Source of the DNA: Aquificota bacterium
GTDB taxonomy: Bacteria > Thermosulfidibacterota > Thermosulfidibacteria > Thermosulfidibacterales > B14-G1
Reading direction: 5' to 3'
NCBI GenBank assembly: GCA_015486105.1
Contig: WFSI01000020.1
Span: 1 to 33,419, forward strand
DNA: 33,419 nt
Of this stretch, positions 14,846 to 32,158 are shown piece after piece. The notes below the pieces were generated by a model that had not been told where the DNA came from, ran no database searches, and saw only the letters and a list, made by a program, of their open reading frames with translations. A program made the position numbers and the translations under genes. Position 1 is the stretch's first letter, and each line of letters opens with the position of its first letter.

Positions 14846-14992
14846 TCATATGGTCCGCCGGCAACCTCCAAAAATCAAAGAAAAAGCAGAGATCCTACCC
14901 AAAGTACATACTTTTAATTTTGCCTTATAGGGGATAAAATCCCGTACCGCACGCGCATTCTTATGAAAACCTACCAAGGGATACACCTTCAT
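14846..14992 (-). CDS. Possible 48-residue ORF coupled to the NusG paralog
   Basis: ATG 14992 overlaps the TGA of the nusG-like gene (ATGA), the classic coupling arrangement, with AGG just upstream. The basic product starts MKVYPLVGFHKNARAVRDF and has no family that I recognise. It could be the residue of a longer gene lost by deletion or a chance frame; it ends 94 bp before the epimerase start. Confidence 0.3.
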   Translation of the reverse strand: MKVYPLVGFHKNARAVRDFIPYKAKLKVCTLGRISAFSLIFGGCRRTI

Positions 14993-15498
14993 GACCTGCC
15001 AACGAAATCAGGTTCTATCTCTACCTTAGCCTGACAGCGAATAGCGTTCAGTAGAATCAACACCCTCTCCTTGGGCTTGATCTCCTCTAAAAAGATGCCC
15101 TCTAACCCCCTCAAAGGACCTTCCTGTATCACCACCTTCTCCCCTGGGGCAAACCTCTGGGGCCGAAGGCTCACAAAACCCCCTACCATCCTCGATTCTA
15201 TAGCTTCTATTATGGCATCATCCACCACATAAGGGTTACCAAAGCTGTCTCCCACAATTCTCCTGATGCCCCGGGTATATTTAATGGTGTGAAAGTATCG
15301 ACCCAATTCGAACCGGGAAAATATGTAGCAAGGGAAAAGCTCCTCTAAGGCTTCCACAAACCTTCCCCTCACAAACTTCTTTCTCTTAATTTTGGGGTTG
15401 AAGACCTTCAAATCCAGACGTTCCCGCAGAGACTTACTGACAGCATCCTCCTTGCCAGCCTTCGTGTAAATGCAGTACCAGTTTCTTATGTCCTTCAT
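14989..15498 (-). CDS. Specialised NusG/RfaH/LoaP-like antitermination factor
   Basis: Protein of 169 residues starting at ATG 15498 (MKDIRNWYCIYTKAGKE). The N-terminal NGN domain is clear (WYCIYTKAGKE near the start, LEELFPCYIFSRF, IKYTRGIRRIVG), and a C-terminal KOW domain follows (FAPGEKVVIQEGPLRGLEGI). The text upstream of this start lies in a mobile repeat, so the longer frame to 15648 is not coding. Such NusG paralogs ride with RNA polymerase to prevent premature termination in long polysaccharide operons. Here the linked genes are an epimerase downstream and galE upstream. The start codon coincides with the predicted transcription start, so the mRNA may be leaderless. It is distinct from housekeeping NusG, which normally lies beside secE and rplK. 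Confidence 0.85.
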   Translation of the reverse strand: MKDIRNWYCIYTKAGKEDAVSKSLRERLDLKVFNPKIKRKKFVRGRFVEALEELFPCYIFSRFELGRYFHTIKYTRGIRRIVGDSFGNPYVVDDAIIEAIESRMVGGFVSLRPQRFAPGEKVVIQEGPLRGLEGIFLEEIKPKERVLILLNAIRCQAKVEIEPDFVGRS

Positions 15499-15505
15499 AG
15501 AACCC

Positions 15506-15534
15506 ATTAAACGTAAACCTGGGGAAAGTGTCAA
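15506..15534 (-). promoter_or_regulatory. Promoter of the NusG paralog, possibly giving a leaderless mRNA
   Basis: Minus strand TTGACA (15534-15529), 17-bp spacer, TTTAAT (15511-15506). A start 7-8 bp downstream falls at 15499-15498, on the A of ATG 15498. No convincing Shine-Dalgarno sequence is present. It sits 5 bp outside the end of repeat copy A. Confidence 0.6.
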
Positions 15535-15539
15535 TCTAC

Positions 15540-15809
15540 CAGGACTTCCCCCATTCCTCTGGAAGGAGAGGGGCAGTGCATTTCGATCGCACCCTATAAG
15601 ATGGAATATAGCTGATGGCTGATAGCTAACAGCTGTATTCGTAGACATGCGACGAATTCATGGGCAAGAGAGGAATGGGGTCCCCACAAAATCAAAAGAT
15701 TTTGTGGGGTAAAAAAGGAATGCACCACCTTTTCACTTGCTTTCAGACAGACTTCCTTTAATTTGAATATGTTAACTAAGGCATTGGCCAGTTCCTGAGG
15801 GAAGTCCTG
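15540..15809 (+). mobile_element. MITE-like element, copy A
   Basis: The ends are perfect 11-bp inverted repeats, CAGGACTTCCC (15540-15550) and GGGAAGTCCTG (15799-15809). Between them are a left arm (TCTGGAAGGAGAGGGGC), a core starting CGATCGCA and ending ATTCATGGGCAAGAG, and a right arm (TTTCAGACAGACTTCC, then TTAACTAAGG). A 39-bp palindromic insert (15678-15716) interrupts the right inner repeat. No clear 9-bp duplication flanks this copy. It fills most of the gap between galE and the nusG-like gene, and no ORF of known family lies within it. Confidence 0.75.
15678..15716. repeat. Nested 39-bp palindromic insert with 6-bp flanking repeat
   Basis: A perfect 12-bp stem, CCCCACAAAATC and GATTTTGTGGGG, has an AAAA loop. 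It is bracketed by GGAATG at 15672-15677 and 15717-15722, whereas copy D has this hexamer once at the same place. A near-identical hairpin occurs in copy B (24407-24434). It looks like a small insertion with a target duplication, not a terminator, because no T-run follows on either strand. Confidence 0.6.
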
Positions 15810-24238: not shown

Positions 24239-24440
24239 TAGGACTCCCCACACTTTTCTGTAAGGAGAGGGGGCGTTTCGATCGCAGCCCATGAGATGGA
24301 AGATAGCTGATGACTAATGGCTAATAGCCGTATTCATGGACATGCGGCGAATTCATGGGCACCTGTCTGCCGTGTCCCCGGCACAGGCAGGAAAGAGGAA
24401 CGGGGTCCCCACAAAATCTGTTGATTTTGCGGGGTAAAAC
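24239..24440 (+). mobile_element. MITE-like element, copy B (right end missing)
   Basis: It begins 17 bp after the previous stop codon with TAGGACTCCCC, the degraded left end. A left arm (TTTTCTGTAAGGAGAGGGGG) and the core CGATCGCAGCCCATGAG ... GACATGCGGCGAATTCATGG follow. A GC-rich inverted repeat (CTGCCGTG/CACAGGCAG) and the CCCCACAAAATC hairpin (24407-24434) are inserted near the right inner repeat. The TTTCAGACAGAC right arm of copies A and D is absent, so the copy is truncated against plsY. Confidence 0.65.
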
Positions 24441-27209: not shown

Positions 27210-27222
27210 GGTAAAAGTCCCG
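27210..27222 (-). repeat. Inverted 13-bp copy of the element C end
   Basis: GGTAAAAGTCCCG is the exact reverse complement of CGGGACTTTTACC, the first 13 bases of element C (27232-27244). The two face each other across the 9-bp GCGACAAAA. It may be the end of a lost neighbouring element or a local inverted duplication. As a hairpin it has no T-run and does not look like a terminator. Confidence 0.6.
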
Positions 27223-27231
27223 GCGACAAAA

Positions 27232-27444
27232 CGGGACTTTTACCAAAAACTGACCATTGCTGTAGTTAAGACATTAAAATTAAAGGGAATCCGGAAAGTA
27301 AGTGAAAGGCGTTCCACTCCGATCGCAGACCATGAAATAGCTAATAGCTGACAGCTGATAGCGGTATCCGTGGACATGCGGCGAACTCATAGGCAAGAGA
27401 GAAATGCCCCGCCCCTCTCCTTCCAGAAAATTGAGGGAGTCCTG
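27232..27444 (-). mobile_element. MITE-like element, copy C, with perfect 9-bp target duplication and flipped core
   Basis: Flanked by GCGACAAAA on both sides (27223-27231 and 27445-27453). The left end CGGGACTTTTACC leads into the reverse complement of the copy D right arm (ACATTAAAATTAAAGG, GAAAGTAAGTGAA). The right end CCCTCTCCTTCCAG...GGGAGTCCTG is the reverse complement of the left arm, so the element as a whole is inserted on the minus strand. The core (CGATCGCAG ... GTGGACATGCGGCGAA) nevertheless reads on the plus strand as in copies A and D. It occupies most of the 401-bp gap between DUF763 and rpmB. Confidence 0.8.
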
Positions 27445-27456
27445 GCGACAAAAAAC

Positions 27457-31181: not shown

Positions 31182-31865
31182 TCACAGGACAAACTCCCTA
31201 TGATGCTGATCATACCAGGAAATGATCCTTTTCACCGCTTTCTGAGGATAATCCTCTACCTGAAAAATGTCCATGTCCTCCTGGCCGATATAGCCCTTTG
31301 CCAACACCCCTTCCCTTATCCAACCCATCAAACCCTGCCAATAGTCTGATCCCATGAGAATGACAGGGAAAGGGTGTATCTTACAGGTCTGAATCAAGAG
31401 GATAGTTTCGAAAAACTCGTCCAAAGTGCCCAACCCCCCGGGAAGAAGTATGAAGGCTGTAGCGTATCTCACCAGCATCACCTTCCTCACGAAAAAGTAA
31501 TGAAAGTTGAGGGTAAGGGTAGTGTAGGGATTAGGCTTCTGCTCGTGGGGTAATTCTATATTAAGACCCACAGACCTACCCCCCTCATCCAATGCTCCCC
31601 TGTTAGCCGCCTCCATAACCCCAGGTCCCCCCCCTGTAAACACAGAAAAACCCTCTTTGGCCAATTCCCCTCCCAACCTCCTGGCCAATTCATAGATCCG
31701 CTCTCCATTTTTCACCCGAGCGGATCCAAAAACAGTGACAGCGGGAAGAAAGGCTGGGAGGGCATCAAACCCTTCTACAAAATCCCCTATGATCCTGAAC
31801 ATCCTCCAGGCCTCTTCCTTGCACAGATGGTTGAACTCATCGAAAAGGGTTACACCCTTAGCCAT
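31182..31865 (-). CDS. LOG-family Rossmann-fold protein (TIGR00730 type)
   Basis: Protein of 227 residues from ATG 31865 (MAKGVTLFDEF), preceded by GGGGGGTAG. The LOG motifs are intact: TVFGSARV, the phosphate-binding GGGPGVMEAANRGA, and PGGLGTLDEFFE. Family members remove ribose 5-phosphate from cytokinin nucleotides or AMP, and many bacterial ones were once annotated as lysine decarboxylases. The physiological role here is unknown. A longer start at 31925 would enter mobile element D and is rejected. Confidence 0.88.
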   Translation of the reverse strand: MAKGVTLFDEFNHLCKEEAWRMFRIIGDFVEGFDALPAFLPAVTVFGSARVKNGERIYELARRLGGELAKEGFSVFTGGGPGVMEAANRGALDEGGRSVGLNIELPHEQKPNPYTTLTLNFHYFFVRKVMLVRYATAFILLPGGLGTLDEFFETILLIQTCKIHPFPVILMGSDYWQGLMGWIREGVLAKGYIGQEDMDIFQVEDYPQKAVKRIISWYDQHHREFVL

Positions 31866-31917
31866 AACTACCCCCCATTTTTTTAACAAGCCTACCAAAG
31901 GAGGAGGCGAGTTTAAA

Positions 31918-32158
31918 CAGGACATCCCCCATTTTTCTGGAAGTGAAGGGGCGGTGCATTTCGATCGCAGCCCATGTCTGAGCCGCCCAGGGAGGTAAGC
32001 AATGAGTTATAAAGTAGTTGGAAACCGCACTCCACGTGGACATGCGGCGAATTCATGGGCAAGAGAGGAATGCACCGCCCCTTCACTTACTTTCAGACAG
32101 ACTTCCTTTAATTTTAATGTGTTAACTAGGCAATAGTCAGTATCTGGGGGAAGTTCTG
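31918..32158 (+). mobile_element. MITE-like element, copy D, with near-perfect 9-bp target duplication
   Basis: The ends CAGGACATCCC and GGGAAGTTCTG are imperfect inverted repeats, flanked by GAGTTTAAA (31909-31917) and GACTTTAAA (32159-32167), 8 of 9 identical. The inner repeats TGAAGGGGCGGTGCATT (from 31943) and AATGCACCGCCCCTTCA (ending 32085) are perfectly complementary and enclose the core. The middle of the core (31976-32034) differs completely from copies A, B and C, although its two edges agree. It lies between the LOG gene and eno and contains no supported gene. Confidence 0.8.

Follow-up and report, generated by a model that had tools for sequence, protein, structure and literature searches.

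The core of one copy of a short repeated element lies inverted relative to the arms of that copy. Copy C occupies exactly positions 27232–27444 of the window (the whole stretch of 33,419 nucleotides analyzed) and is a short non-autonomous (MITE-like) element without a gene. Its core was probably inverted by a rare polymerase template switch at the short internal inverted repeats, which would have left a heritable and probably functionless change. The parts of copy C and its flanks are as follows.

27232–27444, arms on the minus strand: copy C, the whole MITE-like element, 213 bp, with a terminal inverted repeat and a duplication at each side, from the module map
27223–27231, no strand: first copy of the 9-bp target-site duplication GCGACAAAA, with the same letters as 27445–27453
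27445–27453, no strand: second copy of the 9-bp target-site duplication GCGACAAAA, a perfect match to the first
27232–27304, minus strand: right arm of copy C, with the altered end CGGGACTTTTACC, 92% identical to the C54b right arm and 88% to that of C74
27305–27413, plus strand: core segment of copy C with internal repeats, inverted versus the arms; the C74 core matched only on the strand opposite the arms
27308–27311, no strand: inferred changeover toward the right arm (GGCG), from right-arm outer sequence to left-type inner CGATCGCAGACCATG
27406–27413, no strand: inferred changeover toward the left arm (GCCCCGCC), from left-arm outer sequence to right-type inner CATTTCTCTCTTGCC
27414–27444, minus strand: left arm of copy C, 94% identical to the C151 left arm and 87% to that of C74

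The perfect target duplication around both arms shows that the whole unit of copy C came to this site by one transposition. A perfect 13-bp palindrome is also present at 27210–27244, formed by GGTAAAAGTCCCG (27210–27222) and CGGGACTTTTACC (27232–27244); the 9-bp target duplication is its loop, and the partner sequence lies beyond the duplication. This arrangement suggests that the right end of copy C was altered to match the flank, with the normal end replaced through hairpin-templated correction.

Judged from their sequences, the repeats to which copy C belongs are a non-autonomous transposable element (MITE-like). They start with CAGGACTTCCCCC and finish with its reverse complement GGGGGAAGTCCTG. 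With at most one mismatch, these ends were found 25 times in the genome that contains the window (hereafter the source genome) and 133 times in G002, the MAG JAJSAC01 (Thermodesulfobacteriota bacterium Dive96_bin4.269), a relative of the same family; a reversed control gave 3 and 5, respectively. The elements are about 195–320 bp long (mostly 210–290 bp) and have no coding capacity, and in copy C a core of ~100 bp lies between short, imperfect internal inverted repeats. Among the 55 elements having both ends and flanks, 29 are bordered by a direct duplication of 7–11 bp (mostly 8–10 bp), compared with a mean of 0.8 for partner-shuffled flanks. The source genome has roughly 30 copies, many of them decayed, and G002 has more than 55 that are more alike. 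No convincing copy was found in the same-genus genome G001. A core-motif scan of named genomes returned 22 stretches, and the three examined, all from JAJSAC01, carry the element; the others are expected to be mostly chance matches. Very divergent apparent members occur at L091 (C113), L092 (C70c), and L265 (C83), with the C113 and C70c cores starting like GTTCCGAGCGCAGGGCATGTCTGAGCCGCC, which suggests older waves of the element.

In being short and non-coding, with terminal inverted repeats, target-site duplications, and tens of copies per genome, these elements resemble MITEs. They differ in having a modular core that is enclosed by internal inverted repeats and is inverted in two copies, and in that a parent transposase was not found. 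The family appears to be undescribed, in a little-studied Thermodesulfobacteriota lineage; no paper joining this element type with that lineage was found in a literature search.

Regarding the source of the ends, insertion sequences of the ISAs1 family have ends beginning with CAGG and target duplications of 8–10 bp, and the elements share both the CAGG-type ends and this duplication length. However, the ISAs1-associated domain PF13808 was not found in the source genome or four kin genomes (control genomes matched 3/14), so the element was not filed as ISAs1-derived. An IS4-type parent was likewise rejected: PF01609 matches numbered three in two genomes, and none bears the element ends. In these fragmented drafts, no autonomous parent with the element ends was found via PF13808 or PF01609 or at unpaired ends, including those in G002 (C67, C68, and C74), where inspection of the open frames revealed no recognizable transposase. 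At the contig start, positions 1–150 on the minus strand have a weak, sub-threshold DDE_Tnp_1 (PF01609) match that may be left over from another transposase; contig C58 bears a match above the cut-off. The possibility that the core encodes an RNA was also considered and rejected, as Rfam returned nothing on the elements (window plus four element loci, E up to 1); the sole match is weak, unrelated, and located at 613–675 of the window.

Besides copy C, the window contains three copies with normal core orientation.

15540–15809, plus strand: copy A, core in normal orientation, containing a nested GGGTCCCCACAAAATC palindrome, from the module map
24240–24439, plus strand: copy B, left arm and core in normal orientation, right arm lost, two small palindromes, from the module map
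31918–32158, plus strand: copy D, core in normal orientation, flanked by a near-perfect duplication GAGTTTAAA/GACTTTAAA, from the module map
31941–31960, plus strand: left internal inverted repeat of copy D, 20 bp and perfect, pairing with 32069–32088
32069–32088, minus strand: right internal inverted repeat of copy D, pairing with 31941–31960

Many copies have a palindrome of ~35 bp, GGGTCCCCACAAAATC-n4-GATTTTGTGGGGTAAA, at the right internal repeat (about 15678–15713 in copy A, about 24403–24439 in copy B, and at L002–L005 and L100), bordered by a direct repeat of ~9 bp such as AGAGGAACG/AGAGGAATG. G002 and G003 have similar palindromes at further sites (L125, L126, and L132), so this sequence may itself be a very small mobile unit. 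Another small palindrome, CCTGTCTGCCGTGTCCCCGGCACAGGCAGG, is inserted beside the right end of the core in three copies (about 24362–24391, L002, and L100). Two mechanically called open reading frames on the minus strand, NusG-like (14989–15648) and lysine-decarboxylase-like (31182–31925), begin within copies A and D; the real starts of these genes probably lie farther downstream, or else the element supplies them.

For core orientation, four modules were mapped onto the copies, namely the left arm (LA), left core end (CL), right core end (CR), and right arm (RA). Copies A and D both read LA+ CL+ CR+ RA+, the plus-strand order of left arm, core, and right arm given for them in a preliminary description of this DNA. 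Copy C reads RA− CL+ CR+ LA−, which bears out the claim made there of a core inverted with respect to the arms. When the arms are set in LA-to-RA order, the reverse-complemented core of copy C scored 143 against the closest normal core, and the opposite strand scored 37. The perfect inverted repeats earlier said to bound the core of copy D are also present and, at 20 bp (AAGTGAAGGGGCGGTGCATT), are slightly longer than claimed.

Copies in the source genome (a draft of 1.89 Mb in 155 contigs) were gathered by search and from retrieved stretches, and the copy set covers one genome per species. The tabulation of core against arm orientation suggested in the preliminary description was made over copies that carry one or both arms together with one or both core ends. 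In the source genome, 20 of these 22 orientable copies are normal and two are inverted, namely copy C and a copy at positions 1096–1334 of contig C2 (hereafter the C2 copy). All 55 orientable copies of G002 are normal, a difference that is not significant (one-sided exact p ~0.08, calculated by hand), and one orientation is thus found in 75 of the 77 oriented copies in both genomes. A search for the left-arm/right-inner junction pattern returned only copy C; the C2 copy is beyond its mismatch limit, so this search was not exhaustive. At C127c (L095, C127:25200–25550), a left arm is followed by the right-type inner bases GTTCCTCTCT / GCGTTCCTCTCT. This might be a third inverted remnant, truncated and too short for counting.

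The existence of the second inverted case on a different contig bears on whether copy C was simply misassembled. In a draft fragmented into 155 contigs an assembly artefact is conceivable, yet it is very unlikely here, given that the exact words that 27271–27420 shares with other copies of the set are at most 18 nt long and that the target duplication of copy C is intact. Target duplications flank both inverted copies (9/9 positions for copy C and 9/10 for the C2 copy), indicating that both arms of each arrived as one unit.

Comparison with normal copies points to a conservative inversion, without net gain or loss, that a second insertion does not explain. Copy C and its closest normal relative, C74, are both 213 bp long, with 88% identity in the right arm and 83% over 105 aligned positions of the core (that of copy C being on the other strand). 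The C2 copy (239 bp) is similarly close to copy D (241 bp) and C155 (242 bp). As one explanation, the preliminary description had offered that the core inserted a second time independently. In this reading, the core would be a separate mobile unit inserted in the opposite orientation into an arms-only element. Core-less elements do exist (C43 and C82), but they resemble deletions at short matches (C43 is joined at TTTC). No arm-free core was found among the copies examined, the apparently arm-less C150 having degenerate arms, and the core has no flanking duplication. Together with the identical total length of copy C and C74, these observations make such an insertion very unlikely.

The junctions further locate the exchange. 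In both copy C and the C2 copy, the outer sequence of each arm is retained and, within ~4–9 shared bases, switches to the inner sequence of the other arm, such that the inner repeat bases travelled with the core. These changeovers within shared bases place the exchange in the internal inverted repeats. Because copy C and the C2 copy have different core types and belong to different right-arm subfamilies, separate events are probable, and two independent inversions are probably a better account than one. Alternatively, exchange of cores between copies may be the source of the C and C2 arrangements.

Homologous (RecA-type) recombination, with either the internal inverted repeats or two oppositely oriented copies of the element as partners, could also have flipped the core. 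The changeover points do lie inside shared sequence, other copies may have long matching repeats (20 bp in copy D), and core and arm types are mixed among copies, between which exchange seems to occur. However, RecA recombination in E. coli usually needs a match longer than 20 bp, so that the ~4–9 bp at the changeovers, and even the repeats of copy D, fall below this minimum. Moreover, the arms and the core of copy C are both close to those of C74. Homologous recombination is therefore unlikely. Of the flip by recombination at the internal repeats that was proposed earlier, the site of the flip has held, with length conserved, changeovers inside the repeats, and a second, probably independent, example; recombination as its means is less likely, the repeats of copy C being short and imperfect.

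Repeats this short and imperfect favor template switching over both a programmed switch and homologous recombination. As the DNA was replicated, the nascent strand would have moved to the complementary template at one internal repeat arm, copied the core in reverse, and returned at the other internal repeat arm. Such template switching would invert the spacer and could also homogenize the repeat arms. Both outcomes are described for short inverted repeats in yeast in PMC8604942; in the cases examined from that paper, the inverted spacers are 3–5 bp and the arms longer than 9 bp. The inversion in copy C resembles those cases in being a complete inversion of a spacer between short inverted repeats, with the arms in place, length conserved, and apparent arm homogenization elsewhere in the element family. 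It differs in that the spacers here are ~100–130 bp and the arms imperfect; because the spacers documented in those cases are only a few bp, template switching over ~100 bp is an extrapolation. One junction of copy C also carries extra bases (..CGTTCC ACTC CGATCG..), which were counted against template switching.

The perfect 20-bp arm pair of copy D combines left-type and right-type bases, as would be expected from homogenization. This perfect internal repeat is exceptional, and the internal repeats of copy C now match poorly. Arm similarity within copies only marginally exceeds that among different copies (permutation p 0.046, n = 12, an effect to which copy D apparently gives rise), so the case for homogenization across the family is suggestive. 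Of the 10 elements tested for single-strand folding, seven (A, D, C74, C2, C27, C31a, and C151) gave much stronger folds than their dinucleotide shuffles (z −3.2 to −8.2); copy C folds no better than chance (z 0.15), and strong folding is also absent in C3 and C155.

A programmed invertible switch, in which a site-specific recombinase acts on the internal repeats to produce phase variation, would account for a family that has the core in both orientations between inverted repeats, as is seen in phase-variable invertible segments. The elements differ from such segments in that 75 of the 77 oriented copies share one state and in that no recombinase adjoins copy C, its neighbors being genes for DUF763, ribosomal protein L28 (rpmB), and RelA/SpoT. 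Furthermore, the repeats of the inverted copies are degraded, and no sigma-70-like promoter match was found in or around copy C. A programmed switch is thus highly improbable. Still less probable is that the internal inverted repeats evolved for core flipping in the life cycle of the element, for example through a hairpin intermediate of transposition, with orientation as a heritable switch.

Taken together, the inversion is best explained by a mutational process that is already known, probably the template switch, and the sequences examined revealed no sign of programmed switching or of a function for the inverted core. The inverted core would then be a curiosity in a decayed MITE-like element, in what is otherwise ordinary genome decay. 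The two cases are nevertheless of value as probably independent inversions, at very short inverted repeats, of a spacer of ~100–130 bp, in which the ancestral arrangement is clear and the spacers exceed the few bp inverted in the PMC8604942 cases. Multi-copy families of this kind could be used to gauge the frequency of template-switch inversion for longer spacers in bacteria.
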